This document shows, piece after piece, positions 8,654 through 51,283 of a stretch of 64,000 nucleotides of DNA. The translations under genes were made by a program, and so were the position numbers. Source of the DNA: Gammaproteobacteria bacterium (GTDB lineage: Bacteria; Pseudomonadota; Gammaproteobacteria; SZUA-229); the NCBI GenBank assembly GCA_016744065.1, contig JADGFA010000001.1, positions 1 to 64,000 on the forward strand, written 5' to 3'. A model generated the notes under the pieces. It did no database searches, was not told where the DNA came from, and saw only the letters and a list, made by a program, of their open reading frames with translations. Numbering within the stretch: the first letter of the stretch is position 1; every line of letters begins with the position of its first letter.

Positions 8654-9097
8654 ATGAATAAACTATTTTACAGTCCAGTTTTATTTTTAAGTTGTATATC
8701 TTTTTCTGTTTTTGCCAAACCAGAGGAAATAGTTAAACCGACATCAGTTGAGGCATTTTCAATGATGGGAGCCTTGAATATGGCGATGGGTTTAGTTGTT
8801 GTTATTGCTTTGATTCTAGGTCTTGCCTGGATTTTAAAAAAATATGGCCGTTTACCTGGTAATAACCTGGTTGATATGAAAGTACTGGGTGGTTTATCTT
8901 TAGGGACTAGAGAAAAAGCAATTTTAATTGAGGTTGAAAATACAAAGTTGTTAATAGGCGTCACACCGGGGCATATTCAAACACTATATGTGCTAGGTGA
9001 TTCGTCTTTGAGTTCACCGGATAAGAATACCAGTCATATTAATTTACCGATAACTGATTCGTTCGATGCTAAGCTTGAAAAAGTTATGGAAAATTAG
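8654..9097 (+). CDS. fliO: Flagellar biosynthetic protein FliO
   Basis: Small membrane protein that assists FliP assembly into the type III export gate. The N-terminus has a signal-like hydrophobic stretch ([12 protein letters not shown]), then a membrane span at about residues 42-64 and a cytoplasmic part with [30 protein letters not shown]. That last element is the conserved FliO motif. The 147-residue length is typical. It lies between fliN and fliP with only two bases before fliP. FliO sequences are poorly conserved, so position supports the call as much as sequence. Confidence 0.93.
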
Positions 9098-45460: not shown

Positions 45461-45498
45461 ATGACATCATAACCGTGTTTAAACGTTTATGATGTCAT
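45461..45498. terminator. Hairpin at the 3' ends of two convergent genes
   Basis: ATGACATCATAA (45461-45472) pairs with TTATGATGTCAT (45487-45498), and a shorter inner match extends it. The right arm includes the stop codon of the minus-strand gene. No strong T-run follows, so it may act more as an RNA-end stabiliser than a classic terminator for both convergent transcripts. Confidence 0.5.
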
Positions 45499-46374
45499 TC
45501 GTTTGATTATCTTTTTTCGCTTCTGAATGAATTCATATATTGCTACTGCAATAATAATAATGGCAGAAAATAATATTACTGAAACTATTATTATATATTT
45601 TCTATCATATGATTTTTCTGGTTCTTTTGGTTTTTTATGAGTTTTGACTTTTTTAGCTTGAGGTTTGTTGGCTGGTTTTTCAGTCTTAATACCTTTGAGT
45701 GTTTCGGATTCTATTTTTTTTGTTAAGCTGTTATATATGGACATATCCATGCCGCTGTTTTTTAATTCGGCTTGCATTTTTTTATAAGCAGCAAGTGCTT
45801 CATCTTTTCGTCCTGCTTTCTTTAGCTGATCAATATTACTCCAGTGTAAATACCAGTAGTAGCTGTCGCTTTCACCATTTCCGCCCAGGGCAATTTCATT
45901 TTTAGTGGCTTCAATTTTCATGTCTTCAGGTAAGCCATGCTTCATTGTACTAAATATAGGCGCAGTTAACTGATTTTTTGGCGTGTTTCCTAGTTCAATT
46001 GCTTTTTTATAAGCATTGTTTTTGCTGTTTACGTGGCTGTTTGCCAGCGGTAAGTTATTGTTATCAACATAATATGAAGCAATGTTTCTGTGATTTAGTC
46101 CCTTAATAAACCAGTAAACAGCGTTGTCTGAATGCTTTTTTTCCTGATTATTTAGTTGCGTTTCAATATTTAAAAGTTCTATTCTTTGTTGTGGTAATGG
46201 TAGAGGAATATCTTCACTATAATACTCAGTAATACGGTTGGCCAGTGATTCACTTATGAGTGGTTCTGTCTGGAAGTGTTCATAAAAATTAGCATTAGCC
46301 GAGCACAGAGAAAAGGGTGTTAGTATTAAAAATAATAAACTAATAGTTTGCATGCGTGGTTTAATATTTAACAT
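45487..46374 (-). CDS. Exported TPR-like protein with a C-terminal membrane anchor
   Basis: About 295 residues with an N-terminal signal-like segment (MQTISLLFLILTPFSLCSA). The middle is helical and TPR-like (YWFIKGLNHRNIASYY, KAGRKDEALAAYKKMQAEL). It is followed by a Lys-rich linker (KKVKTHKKPKEPEK), one span (YIIIVSVILFSAIIIIAVAIY) and a basic tail. The anchor orientation puts the body in the periplasm. The start is uncertain: 46374 or 46353. It overlaps the end of the M15-like gene, so the pair is coupled. No family is recognised. Confidence 0.65.
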   Translation of the reverse strand: MLNIKPRMQTISLLFLILTPFSLCSANANFYEHFQTEPLISESLANRITEYYSEDIPLPLPQQRIELLNIETQLNNQEKKHSDNAVYWFIKGLNHRNIASYYVDNNNLPLANSHVNSKNNAYKKAIELGNTPKNQLTAPIFSTMKHGLPEDMKIEATKNEIALGGNGESDSYYWYLHWSNIDQLKKAGRKDEALAAYKKMQAELKNSGMDMSIYNSLTKKIESETLKGIKTEKPANKPQAKKVKTHKKPKEPEKSYDRKYIIIVSVILFSAIIIIAVAIYEFIQKRKKIIKRMTS

Positions 46375-47602
46375 TTGCATGTAAGTGATCTGCCTTATCA
46401 AATGCATCAGGGATTCCATTTTGAGGCTCTATATCCTGTTTAAATTCTTTTGTTGTCATGGGTCTGCCATTGGTTTCAAGTTGCCAGTAAGCCTTTATTT
46501 CAGATTTATTGCTTTCCAGAGCATTCCATAATATCCAGTAGCCAATAGCTGATTTTCGCGAGTTGGAAGGTGCCATTATGATTAAATCGATAGCGCCTCC
46601 ACGCTGATGTATTCCATTGACGGCATTGCTATACCATTCATTACGTTCAGGGTTGCGCCAGCCACTGGTTACCCATAGTTTGCTTTCGGGTATTTCCAGC
46701 TTATTCATTTTTAAGTCATGGAATGAATTTGTGTTTTTTAATTTTTTTAAGTTATTAGAGTAAATATTGTTTATTTTTCTGGCGAGTTCTAGCATTCCAT
46801 CATTAATAATTAATTTATACTGGCTTTCGGTTAAAGGGTTACCGGCTAGTTTTTTTGGTTTGTTCGGTATATTTGTTATTTCTTCTCTTTTGGGTATAGG
46901 TATATGGCCGTTTTTTCCACGGCCATAACGTTTTATATTGTAATGATTGATATATTCCTGTCGAATCATGTCAATACGATCCATGCTTAAATTCGTTTTA
47001 TGTGTGGAGATGATTTCGTTATTCTCAGTGATTGTTACTGTGACATCGTATGAAAATTTTGGGTTATATTTTTTTTCATCAATATTACGGGTTCCCCCTC
47101 CGTATTTTCGTCTGCTGCCCTGTGATCCTTTGCCTTTTTTATATATTGAGGGTTGATGCGAAAATGGTGCAGGTCTGAAAATAAGTTGTTGCCTATTTTG
47201 TATATCTTTTTTAAGGGGTGAGGAGTTCCATAGGTATCCCGAGCTTAACATACGGCCATGACCCGTGAAATCAGATAGTAATTTAATTGTGCCATGATTT
47301 TTGTCGTTAACTTTAATGCGCCATTGAACAGATTGGTTTTCTTTGGGTTGCTTAATCAGCTTGATAACAAAAGGGGTTTGTTGGCCAATGGTGTTTTGTT
47401 TGCTGGAGTGCTTTATCCCCTGTGTCAGTAAATGGCCTTTCTTAATAATAATGAATGATTGAATTGCATTACTTTCTGGATTGGCGGAGCTAATAACAGA
47501 TAAATGTTGAGAAGAAACTTCTGCCAGAACTATCTGGTTGCAGGGCAATGCGCTAAGTAGAGTTACAAATAAGAATATTCGTTTGATATGTGCGCCCCGC
47601 AT
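46361..47602 (-). CDS. Exported protein with an M15-type (D-Ala-D-Ala) peptidase-like C-terminal domain
   Basis: A 413-residue protein with a signal peptide (FLFVTLLSALPCNQIVLA). The N-terminal 250 residues have no recognised domain and include a Gly/Lys/Arg-rich stretch near 150-175. The C-terminal part carries VTSGWRNPERN, then GIHQRGGAIDL with His332 and Asp339, and DHLHANVKY with His406/His408. The H-x6-D spacing and the final HxH match the zinc site of peptidase family M15 (the VanX/Hedgehog fold). A peptidoglycan substrate is the natural guess, but catalysis is unproven. GAAGGA touches the ATG very closely. It overlaps the TPR-like gene downstream. Confidence 0.72.
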   Translation of the reverse strand: MRGAHIKRIFLFVTLLSALPCNQIVLAEVSSQHLSVISSANPESNAIQSFIIIKKGHLLTQGIKHSSKQNTIGQQTPFVIKLIKQPKENQSVQWRIKVNDKNHGTIKLLSDFTGHGRMLSSGYLWNSSPLKKDIQNRQQLIFRPAPFSHQPSIYKKGKGSQGSRRKYGGGTRNIDEKKYNPKFSYDVTVTITENNEIISTHKTNLSMDRIDMIRQEYINHYNIKRYGRGKNGHIPIPKREEITNIPNKPKKLAGNPLTESQYKLIINDGMLELARKINNIYSNNLKKLKNTNSFHDLKMNKLEIPESKLWVTSGWRNPERNEWYSNAVNGIHQRGGAIDLIIMAPSNSRKSAIGYWILWNALESNKSEIKAYWQLETNGRPMTTKEFKQDIEPQNGIPDAFDKADHLHANVKY

Positions 47603-47682
47603 TCCTTCTCTCTGTTAAGGTTATTGCATGAGGTATAGTTCAGTAATGTCAGTTTTTCAAGTTTTCTGTAAGGATAGGTCTA

Positions 47683-48114
47683 TTAATGTGAAACAATACA
47701 GGGTTTTGGAGAGGATTTTACCAGATCACACTCCAGGTAGATTGAGCCAGTTACGTTGCCTGAACCATAACGATTATTTGAATATAATGTATATATCTGA
47801 TTATTGTAATTCGCACAGATTACCCATTCATCAAGTTTATAATTAACAAAAGGTGTGTAAGTGTATTCTTCTATGATTGCTTTTAAATTGAATTTCCCCT
47901 GGGGGTTGGTTAAAGTGGAATCTCGGGACTGGCGGCAAGATTTATCTCCTGAGGTAAGGCTTAACATTATTTTGGTGTTAGCAACAGGTTTGCCATTGAA
48001 TTGTAATATTCCGTTAAAGTGTGGGCTTATGCTTCGGTTCTGTGATGAAATACTACATCCAGTTAATATAAAAATGAATGAAAGGTAAAGTATAAAAAAT
48101 ATTCTAGTTAACAT
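47683..48114 (-). CDS. Lipoprotein with a carboxypeptidase-regulatory-like domain
   Basis: A 143-residue protein with a lipobox FILTGC near residues 15-20, so it is lipid-anchored. The mature part resembles carboxypeptidase-regulatory-like/transthyretin-type beta domains: GILQFNGKPVANTKIMLSL with TNPQGKFNLKAI. Such domains often sit in envelope proteins and may be binding modules. It lies 30 bases downstream of the DUF3570 gene and 80 bases upstream of the M15-like gene, all on the same strand. Function is unknown. Confidence 0.7.
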   Translation of the reverse strand: MLTRIFFILYLSFIFILTGCSISSQNRSISPHFNGILQFNGKPVANTKIMLSLTSGDKSCRQSRDSTLTNPQGKFNLKAIIEEYTYTPFVNYKLDEWVICANYNNQIYTLYSNNRYGSGNVTGSIYLECDLVKSSPKPCIVSH

Positions 48115-48144
48115 ATTGTTTTCTTTTTTATAGTGTTTATAAAG

Positions 48145-49335
48145 TTACCAGTTATATGAATAGTTCCAGGTTAAAATCAGTGTTCGTAAGGTAGGGAACA
48201 GGTCCTGTTCCTTTTGTAAACCAATTGCCGTGTCCGGGTGGCTGTCACCTATTTGGGTATAGTACTCTATGCCAATGCTTTGTTCACTGTTTTCCTGATA
48301 TGATTTTCCGTATTTAAAGCCAACGGTATATGCATTAAATTTAGCTAATCTAAAGTCAGAGCTAGCATAATCAGGTATTGGTATACTCTTATTTAAGCTA
48401 TGTTGATAAAAATTTGCAGCAGTTTGATGGTAAAACCTTAGATGTGGCTGAAAATAATAACGATATGATAAATCGAGGACGTCGCCTTTTATATATAGCT
48501 TATATGCAGAGTAAATATTCTGAATATAGCGTTGATCAGGTCTGTTTTCATATACATAATCAAGTGTTGAGCCGAGTTGAAGGTTGTTCTGGTCATCAAT
48601 TATACTCAATAATTTATAAGGATCAGAAAGGTAGCCTGAAGCATTTGACCAGGCGTATTTTATTTGCATAAGTGAATTTTTATTAATAATCTGGTTAAGG
48701 CCAAGGTGTACACCTGACTGGCGTCGTGTGGTGCTTGCTTCCCCTCTGGGTTGTAATGTGCCAGGTGGTTGCATTGATGTGAATGGTAATGGTATTCCGC
48801 CTACTGGGTGTACGCGATTATATTCAATGTTTATGCCTGTCAGTAGCGTTGTTGTATGTTGGTTGAAATCCTGTAAAAATTCTACACCAGCTCCCAGGGA
48901 TAAATAGTCGAATTCCATTGAGATGTGGGAGGAGTAGTTTAACTGTAGATTGTCGTTTACTTTTGAGTCATAAGAAAGACTAAAGGCCATACGGGTATCC
49001 ATATGTGTATTATCAGCGGGAAGTTCATTAGCATTAACGCGATAGCTGTTACTGCCGGAGGCCATGGTGAAGCTTTGTGTTACATTGCTTGCGCTTGCCC
49101 CATTCGGTGTTGCTCCAGTAATGACATCAAAGTCAAATTGTAGGGAAATTGCATCACCATCATCAAGTTCTCTTTTCCCATTTACTATTAATTCTATACC
49201 TGTATTTCTATCCTGTTCGATGTAGTTCATTATGCCCAGGTCAACAAACCAGGGTTTGGTGTTTGCAGTGGCTGTTGTGCCTAATAAACAATAGCAGGCT
49301 GATGATAAAGATATTCTTATAGATGATTTAGACAT
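48145..49335 (-). CDS. DUF3570-family outer-membrane beta-barrel protein
   Basis: A 396-residue protein with an N-terminal signal (about residues 1-24, ending near TANTKP). The segment SLQFDFDVITGATPNGASAS is a mark of DUF3570 proteins. The rest is a series of amphipathic strands rich in Tyr and Asn and ends in TWNYSYNW with an aromatic terminal residue, as in outer-membrane barrels. It overlaps the DUF4266 gene by one base (TAATG). In other genomes this pair is often joined by apbE and a thioredoxin-like gene; neither is present here. Function is unknown. Confidence 0.85.
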   Translation of the reverse strand: MSKSSIRISLSSACYCLLGTTATANTKPWFVDLGIMNYIEQDRNTGIELIVNGKRELDDGDAISLQFDFDVITGATPNGASASNVTQSFTMASGSNSYRVNANELPADNTHMDTRMAFSLSYDSKVNDNLQLNYSSHISMEFDYLSLGAGVEFLQDFNQHTTTLLTGINIEYNRVHPVGGIPLPFTSMQPPGTLQPRGEASTTRRQSGVHLGLNQIINKNSLMQIKYAWSNASGYLSDPYKLLSIIDDQNNLQLGSTLDYVYENRPDQRYIQNIYSAYKLYIKGDVLDLSYRYYFQPHLRFYHQTAANFYQHSLNKSIPIPDYASSDFRLAKFNAYTVGFKYGKSYQENSEQSIGIEYYTQIGDSHPDTAIGLQKEQDLFPTLRTLILTWNYSYNW

Positions 49336-49562
49336 TAGTTACACCCACAGCCACCGCCGCTAAACCCCTGGCCGCCACTAGATGCTTCTTTACTATAATA
49401 AAAATGAGAATCCATAGTTGAGATAATTTTGTTTGAATTAAATTGCATTTCTTTTTTTGATAAAATATCACGCTGCCAGGGTTCTATGTTTGTGTTACTG
49501 CATGATATTAAGTTTATAGTTAATAATAAACTGCTTATGACTCGTATCGTTTTTTTATACAT
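49335..49562 (-). CDS. DUF4266-family small lipoprotein
   Basis: A 75-residue protein with a lipoprotein signal (SLLLTINLISC, lipobox Cys at about 21). The mature part follows the DUF4266 pattern: EPWQRDILSKKEMQ, HFYYSKEASSGGQG, and a C-terminal GGGCGCN. The closing Cys-Gly-Cys and the Gly run are very characteristic. It starts the five-gene exported cluster and overlaps the DUF3570 gene. The Cys pair could bind a metal or take part in thiol chemistry, which is inference. Confidence 0.85.
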   Translation of the reverse strand: MYKKTIRVISSLLLTINLISCSNTNIEPWQRDILSKKEMQFNSNKIISTMDSHFYYSKEASSGGQGFSGGGCGCN

Positions 49563-49717: not shown

Positions 49718-50998
49718 TTAGCTGGGGCGGATCCTAAAGCTCATGTAACCCCAGATAAATGTCAGTATACCAATAATTGAACCGTAAAGATCATAATATC
49801 GATAAGAAAATTTTCGGGTTTTTGTTAGTTGTTCTTCAGCAACACCAAAAGCAGGTAGCGTTTTTCGTGGAATCCAGCCACTTTCGTTATTATTTAATTT
49901 AACCTGATCCCAGCGCAACCCATTTTTTATGACAGATTTTTTATAAATAAAAATTTCACCTGCAGGTAGAATACTTATTATTCTTGATTTCTTACCGGGC
50001 TCTTCATTAAGTTGGGTCTGGTTTTTAAGTACTTCAACAAATAAGTTACTGGATTGGTAAAGTGGTTCATGCCAGCGTTTTTTAAAGGGGACGTCGGTGT
50101 AATGGTTAAAGCTGGCAAAAAGCAAAAGTGCTAACCCGGAACCAAATAGGCCACTTAATATTCTGAGCATGGTTCTTGAAATAAAGTCAATGCGTAACAT
50201 GTAATATGCGAAACCAGCCAGGGCGAGTGTTTGTATAAGAAGTATAATTGGGTAGTCAGAAGGAATATTGCTGGTTTCCTGAAACCAGCTAAAAGACAGC
50301 CCTGAGTCTGCTAGTAAATAACGCAGATAGTATTGATAGATAAAAAATAGAGCTAACAGTGTTGTTATTACATAGGTAATAAGTTCTAGCTTCTGGCTTT
50401 TTAATAAAGGCATTATAGAGTCGGCCTTTATATTTGAAATCAGGTTTTTATGCTCCTGCCAGTTGCAGCTATATAATGAAATGCCTTTACGTTTGCCGAT
50501 TAAATTTAATTCATCTCTTTTTTCAAATTGAAAGTCTTCTGAATCAGTGTGGGCACAGGTTGAGTGTGTAACGAGTATTTGATTAGCTTCAGCGCTATTT
50601 TCAACTTTGGCGGCAACATTTACTACATCACCAAAAACATCATCATATTCAACAATGCCTTTTCCCGTGTGAATGCCAATACGGGTGCGTAGGCTAAAGT
50701 ATTTATCTCGAATGCGTTCGGCAGCCAGTTGTTGTTGAATAGCGATACCGGCTTTCACTGCATTTCCAGGTTTGTTAAATGATGCCATTATTGCATCACC
50801 CAGTGTTTTAATTATTTTTCCATTGAATTTACGTATAATGGGAAACAGTAGCCGGTTATGACGGTCCAGTAACATGCGTGCATCTACATCGCCACGGCGC
50901 TCCCAATGGCGTGTGGAGTGTTCTATGTCTGTAAATAATATAGTTACCTGTTTTCGGGATTTTTTGATAACTTCGATGGTGCTTTTATCTGTTAACAT
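49718..50998 (-). CDS. Class III adenylate/guanylate cyclase-type protein with membrane spans and an SH3-like tail
   Basis: A 426-residue protein. The N-terminal cyclase domain (about 15-185) has the metal-binding Asp24 in LFTDIEHST and Asp68 in TLGDAIMASF. The transition-state pair usually reads N-x-A-x-R; here VNVAAKVEN puts Lys in place of Arg, which may lower or change activity. Four or so membrane spans follow (about 205-320, then near the end). Between the last spans an SH3b-like stretch, ILPAGEIFIYKKSVIKNGLRWDQVKL...GWIPRKTLPAF, is seen. It diverges from a small lipoprotein gene only 39 bases away. Confidence 0.83.
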   Translation of the reverse strand: MLTDKSTIEVIKKSRKQVTILFTDIEHSTRHWERRGDVDARMLLDRHNRLLFPIIRKFNGKIIKTLGDAIMASFNKPGNAVKAGIAIQQQLAAERIRDKYFSLRTRIGIHTGKGIVEYDDVFGDVVNVAAKVENSAEANQILVTHSTCAHTDSEDFQFEKRDELNLIGKRKGISLYSCNWQEHKNLISNIKADSIMPLLKSQKLELITYVITTLLALFFIYQYYLRYLLADSGLSFSWFQETSNIPSDYPIILLIQTLALAGFAYYMLRIDFISRTMLRILSGLFGSGLALLLFASFNHYTDVPFKKRWHEPLYQSSNLFVEVLKNQTQLNEEPGKKSRIISILPAGEIFIYKKSVIKNGLRWDQVKLNNNESGWIPRKTLPAFGVAEEQLTKTRKFSYRYYDLYGSIIGILTFIWGYMSFRIRPS

Positions 50999-51037
50999 TG
51001 TGTTTATTAAAATCTCAAGCTTGTAAGGGGAATGGCA

Positions 51038-51283
51038 ATGCTGCGCATAGAAAATTTATTATTATTATTTTTACTGCTTGTACTCAGCGCTTGTTCAACA
51101 ACAGCCAAAGGTCCGATAACTAATAAAGAATATAGGGTGCAAATGGGCGGCTGGCAAGATATGAATGAATATAATCAGGCGCGTGATCAGGCAGTGCGCA
51201 ATAAAACGCGTACTGGAAATGCTGCTGCTGACTGTAGCGTGCCTGATTGTCCCAATATGAAGGGTGAAAAGAAGCCTGAATAA
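51038..51283 (+). CDS. Small lipoprotein of unknown function
   Basis: About 81 residues. The signal peptide MLRIENLLLLFLLLVLSAC ends in a clear lipobox LSAC. The mature part is polar, with MGGWQDMNEYNQARDQ and two Cys in DCSVPDCPNMKG near the end. The ATG at 51038 is preferred because AAGGGG is at a good distance; an ATG at 51032 is too close to it. Its promoter must overlap that of the divergent cyclase gene. No family is recognised. Confidence 0.65.
   Translation: MLRIENLLLLFLLLVLSACSTTAKGPITNKEYRVQMGGWQDMNEYNQARDQAVRNKTRTGNAAADCSVPDCPNMKGEKKPE

Follow-up and report, generated by a model that had tools for sequence, protein, structure and literature searches.

The stretch of DNA considered here (the window, positions 1 to 64,000 of contig JADGFA010000001.1 of the gammaproteobacterial genome G000) carries a row of five leftward genes, lettered A to E from upstream to downstream, within which the pair D-E, often accompanied by the gene of lipoprotein C, is the conserved unit. 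Gene D (46,361-47,602, minus strand) displays a signal peptide, an Ig-like beta-sandwich, a DxxRQEY linker and an M15-type zinc-peptidase domain, while gene E (45,487-46,353, minus strand) encodes a signal peptide, a helical periplasmic domain and a C-terminal transmembrane segment with a basic tail. D is read here as a probable periplasmic M15 peptidoglycan peptidase and E as the membrane-anchored protein that would tether or restrain it, with C as a frequent neighbour and genes A and B as an independent element; a probability of about 0.5 is given to this reading as a whole. Five leftward exported genes had been announced by the initial annotation of the window, and the open reading frames were indeed present, with A, B and C assigned by Pfam.

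Profiles of D and E were built independently and each was run over the 54 genomes of the window's order, which is the comparison set for all order-wide counts given below. The D profile detected 13 genomes and the E profile the identical 13, with E always adjoining D and neither gene ever found alone. Genes flanking the pair differed from genus to genus, which indicates that D and E move or stay together; about half of the carrier genomes also had C, upstream of D. D followed by E was also encountered in three more distant gammaproteobacterial metagenome-assembled genomes (40-42 % identity for D) as well as in three genomes from a different class. Running the E profile alone over 398 genomes of the phylum retrieved two of these last, both with an M15-type gene directly upstream; the M15 domain itself was present in 6 of the 78 genomes considered in that class. 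Relatives of D were found neither on plasmids nor in viruses. The complete set of five families, presented initially as one cluster, was rare elsewhere, and what persisted of the supposed co-occurrence was the constant association of D with E.

D and E are separated by 7 nucleotides in the window, while in other species they overlap by 1 to 14 nucleotides or lie a few bases apart. This spacing assumes that E starts at the ATG at 46,353, which was preferred to the alternative of the open reading frame finder at 46,419 because homologues begin there. Overlaps had been proposed at both ends of the row: that between A and B was found again (one shared nucleotide, TAATG), whereas that between D and E would exist only with the upstream ATG.

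Judging from sequence profiles and a predicted structure, the C-terminal domain of D is a genuine relative of the M15 (LAS-fold) zinc peptidases. Single-sequence Pfam searches gave no meaningful match for D or for E. Nearly all relatives of D displayed the same succession of motifs, DxxRQEY, SGWRNPERNE, HxxGxAxD and HxH, in which the zinc-ligand pattern of family M15 (H-x6-D ... H) is present. Among 22 relatives, and in the numbering of the window protein, R316, H332, D339 and H406 were invariant and H408 nearly so, which bears out the earlier mention of M15-like zinc residues. The zinc site spans 46,379-46,609 (minus strand; H332 at 46,607-46,609, D339 at 46,586-46,588 and H408 at 46,379-46,381) and the RQEY signature of the linker (residues 214-217) is at 46,952-46,963 on the same strand. 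The acidic residue D405, three before the last histidine, was kept in near relatives. Export of D relies on a signal peptide read from the sequence, and the N-terminal half (about residues 31-209) forms an Ig-like sandwich whose structural matches were generic.

A profile of D built from 22 sequences and compared with the PDB retrieved 1LBU as its best match (E 5.3e-5), over the region SG(W/F)R...HxxGxAxD, H332 and D339 being aligned with the HxxGxAxD of that enzyme. Weaker matches were mainly M15 enzymes (VanX-type, VanY/VanXY-type and T5 endopeptidase), and no Hedgehog chain was matched at E values up to 10. An earlier profile of 15 sequences had 1LBU as its sole match, at 0.021. The distant members of the family exceeded the Pfam M15_3 cut-off. 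For the C-terminal 209 residues a model was obtained with a predicted local distance difference test (pLDDT) of 77.7 and a predicted template modeling score of 0.77. Nearly all of its top rows in Foldseek and VIA were LAS/M15 proteins, the best group being composed of Hedgehog N domains, LdcB, VanXY, phage endolysins and ChiX, each of which adopts the LAS fold, with the Hedgehog N domains in first place (18 % identity with ShhN in the structural alignment). The initial suggestion of an M15-like domain was thus matched by structure prediction, with modest scores. An AlphaFold model of the entire protein D (pLDDT 61) was set aside, its C-terminal domain being too poor and its PDB matches being limited to the N-terminal beta-sandwich.

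The signal peptide of E and its single C-terminal membrane segment (peak at residue 254), followed by the basic tail, were likewise read from the sequence. The protein is helical and weakly TPR-like, TPR_17 (E 0.032) and TPR_1 (E 0.12) each being detected in one of ten homologues. The TPR label initially given to E was therefore weak; a distant counterpart at locus L049 was clearly a TPR protein (TPR_17, 1.2e-8). Profile matches of E to designed PPR/TPR proteins were discarded, since they comprised zero scored stretches and were not real matches.

According to the proposed mechanism, D would be secreted to the periplasm and positioned there by its Ig-like domain, and its M15/LAS-fold domain would most likely trim or cut peptidoglycan peptides. 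E would be exported and would remain fixed in the inner membrane through its C-terminal segment, the helical domain lying in the periplasm, where it would most likely bind D and thereby both tether and restrain it. A role as tether or inhibitor is provisionally preferred for E over that of a pure activator.

Several observations weigh against this interpretation. E itself had no significant Pfam domain, and the most distant members have T or G in place of D405, so that catalysis may vary within the family. The best E-values of Foldseek for M15 or Hedgehog proteins were only 0.02-0.2 and the Z score of VIA reached at most 5.9, and the model alone thus supports the LAS fold of D without proving it. 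Furthermore, proteins of the M15 fold are sometimes non-enzymatic or of disputed activity, as is the case of Hedgehog.

Outside the order, the M15 domain was encountered on larger proteins. A Thermoanaerobaculia genome, from outside the phylum, displayed a giant Ig-repeat protein ending in the domain, followed by a TPR protein and by a second M15 copy, and a Saprospiraceae genome carried the domain inside a protein of 898 residues. In the class relatives G475 and G467 it ended large proteins which were followed by an E-like gene; two M15-E modules stood in tandem in G475 (locus L117), and at L049 an extra M15 copy nearly repeated the tip of the giant protein. Large surface proteins with M15 ends occupied L049:3500-9597, L117:3058-9269 and L118:2-9873, were often rich in Ig, HYR, PKD or Glucodextran_B domains and were followed by TPR-like or anchored genes. 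Transposase-like fragments of IS110-type appearance (L117:10317-11350) adjoined the large surface-protein locus of G475.

With lower probability, D-E could be described more specifically as an M15-type peptidoglycan peptidase with a cognate membrane-anchored inhibitor serving self-protection or immunity, an undescribed system that would be sparsely distributed over several phyla, either as a stand-alone periplasmic pair or as the tip of giant surface proteins, and sometimes provided with tandem spare modules. A serious, if rather unlikely, rival is that the pair is outright antibacterial, D being a peptidoglycan-cutting effector or a secreted lysin and E its periplasmic, membrane-anchored immunity protein. 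Two genes that always occur together, are patchily distributed and sit at varying genomic sites would agree with such a function, as would the M15 tips of large surface proteins followed by E-like or TPR genes in other lineages and the extra tandem M15 copies at L117 and L049, which resemble displaced tip modules. In the lineage of the window, however, D was single-copy, carried a signal peptide of its own and lacked a delivery domain, and no secretion system was seen next to D-E. PADLOC, whose library covers anti-phage defence and not toxins, gave no match for either protein. Within the genus, D was well conserved (68-80 % identity to the window) and E evolved just moderately faster (55-65 %); fast evolution of E, considered at one point as evidence of immunity, was dropped for this reason.

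In five species of the genus of the window, D-E was located downstream of a membrane cyclase. In the window this cyclase, which belongs to class III and comprises membrane segments and an SH3-like domain, lies upstream of the row (49,718-50,998, minus strand); it matched Pycsar cyclase models (1.6e-9), and no Pycsar effector was recognised near it. Gene C (47,683-48,114, minus strand; DUF6795, Pfam 5.1e-10) stood between cyclase and D in all of these species except G002, where apparently a decayed remnant of C was left between the cyclase (ending at 8,695 of locus L026) and D (starting at 8,899), which indicates that C is dispensable. C is a lipoprotein with an export signal and lipobox (LTGC) read from the sequence, and weakly resembles transthyretin and CarboxypepD_reg domains. 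In G013, from another genus, cyclase, C, D and E were consecutive, and in several genera the cyclase was absent beside D-E. A small lipoprotein-like open reading frame of 83 residues (51,032-51,283, plus strand), conserved throughout the genus, was also observed between the genes for the cyclase and for acetyl-CoA synthetase.

With such a neighbour, the M15-type domain of D might alternatively be a non-catalytic Hedgehog-like binder of wall or surface material, and D and E might form an envelope complex for anchorage or sensing that is tied to the upstream cyclase. This appears quite improbable: the first rank of Hedgehog N domains among structural matches and the ancestral position of the membrane cyclase and its SH3-like domain would speak for it, but the zinc ligands were retained, together with D405 in near relatives, the sequence profile favoured bacterial carboxypeptidases over Hedgehog, and in several genera the pair stood without the cyclase beside it. 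A periplasmic peptidase held by an anchored partner is still preferred.

Genes A (49,335-49,562, minus strand; DUF4266 lipoprotein-like peptide, Pfam 4.8e-20) and B (48,145-49,335, minus strand; DUF3570 protein of the ApbE-flavinylated family type, Pfam 6.3e-89) constitute an independent flavin-type redox module of known type, separate from D-E. The initial annotation regarded the whole cluster as built on this pair. A-B adjoined D-E in only two of the 13 D-bearing genomes, those of the window and of its sister species G004, and in two of the 59 DUF4266 loci of the order, and this view was abandoned. Among the five species mentioned, A-B stood between cyclase and C exclusively in these two, while in G003 and G001 the junction was intact, with about 50 bases from the cyclase stop to the start of C. 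In the simplest history A-B was inserted into an existing cyclase-C-D-E row in an ancestor of the two species, loss elsewhere being less simple. The presence of DUF4266 anywhere in the genome (12 of 13 D-bearing genomes against 26 of 41 others, counted by hand) offered too weak a contrast to be used. In two genomes of genus g12, a DUF4266 locus was found on the same contig as D-E, about 19-21 kb away and not adjacent (G015:C10 and G028:C23).

DUF3570 proteins are flavinylated by ApbE at [S/T]GA[S/T] motifs, and in known clusters they accompany genes for ApbE, thioredoxin-like proteins and DUF4266, the latter with a conserved C-terminal CXC (PMC8238504). A and B are members of this module according to Pfam, and both signatures were present. 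The CXC of A (49,341-49,349, minus strand) belongs to the terminal residues GCGCN, and B displayed a single exact motif, TGAT at residues 73-76 (49,108-49,119, minus strand), the next position being NGAS. The pair differed from the described module in having no adjoining ApbE or thioredoxin gene and in the divergence of B: in a DUF3570 tree covering the order, the inserted copies (B and that of locus L083) formed a long separate branch of 1.34 changes per column. Several other DUF4266 loci also lacked a thioredoxin motif within 1,500 bases, and its absence here is thus not special. It had been supposed that apbE and thioredoxin genes were replaced in the window by a peptidase and a TPR protein. 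This does not fit with an insertion at the ancestral cyclase-lipoprotein junction, nor with the two ordinary loci elsewhere in the genome, which brought the total of DUF4266/DUF3570 loci to three (thioredoxin-DUF4266-DUF3570-ApbE on C61 and thioredoxin-DUF4266-DUF3570 on C35). Two ApbE genes were located elsewhere in this genome, on C61 and C86, and could act in trans, so that B is probably flavinylated by an ApbE encoded at a distance.

Scans for promoters and terminators detected no more sites than in shuffled sequence, and no terminator-like site was found on the strand of the genes from A to E, which would make a single transcript possible. That all five genes form one redox-plus-wall system, in which DUF4266/DUF3570 electron transfer drives or regulates the peptidase, would agree with this and with the tight leftward spacing of the five genes in G000 and G004, but is highly improbable given an association confined to two sister species and an insertion site intact in related genomes.

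The A-B pair and M15 enzymes were already known; what appears to be new is the linked pair D-E. D shares a zinc motif and a C-terminal catalytic domain with 1LBU, the zinc D-Ala-D-Ala carboxypeptidase (muramoyl-pentapeptide carboxypeptidase) of Streptomyces albus G, but differs by its Ig-like N-terminal domain, its RQEY linker and the WRNPERNE motif, absent from the aligned part of 1LBU. In contrast to 1LBU and M15_3 proteins, it always comes with a membrane-anchored partner and gives no Pfam M15 match on its own. Hedgehog N domains and bacHh proteins (PMC6027127, PMC8052667) were closest in predicted fold and share with D a LAS zinc site with an H-X-H ending and a C-terminal place in a larger exported protein, although no match was found at the sequence level; bacHh is defined by a calcium site whose calcium-binding residues are identical to those of Hedgehog, and by high sequence identity to it.

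Among partners, the pair resembles NlpI-MepS of E. coli, in which an exported helical-repeat protein, the TPR adaptor NlpI, is associated with a wall peptidase, the peptidoglycan endopeptidase MepS (PMC11211486, PMC7049810). NlpI, however, is a lipoprotein of the outer membrane and serves other hydrolase families, whereas E carries a membrane segment at its C terminus and stands beside one M15 gene. E can also be likened to Bd3460 of Bdellovibrio, a helical-repeat protein that blocks peptidoglycan peptidases (Bd3459 and Bd0816) for self-protection (PMC4686830), but there the fold is ankyrin, the enzymes are DD-endopeptidases and the context is predation. NlpI and Bd3460 serve as precedents for a workable arrangement and not as demonstrated relatives. 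No description of an M15 protein with an RQEY linker and an exported, C-terminally anchored partner was found in the literature searched, mostly from non-subscription journals; the undescribed surface or wall-remodelling system proposed initially would thus survive as this pair and not as a unit of five genes.

The unit is thereby corrected: D and E travel together as peptidase and anchored partner, and the redox pair does not belong to them. If the partner controls the enzyme, D-E would represent a compact and testable peptidase-regulator pair, and the fact that giant surface proteins from other phyla also end in this domain provides a lead on how they may act on cell walls.

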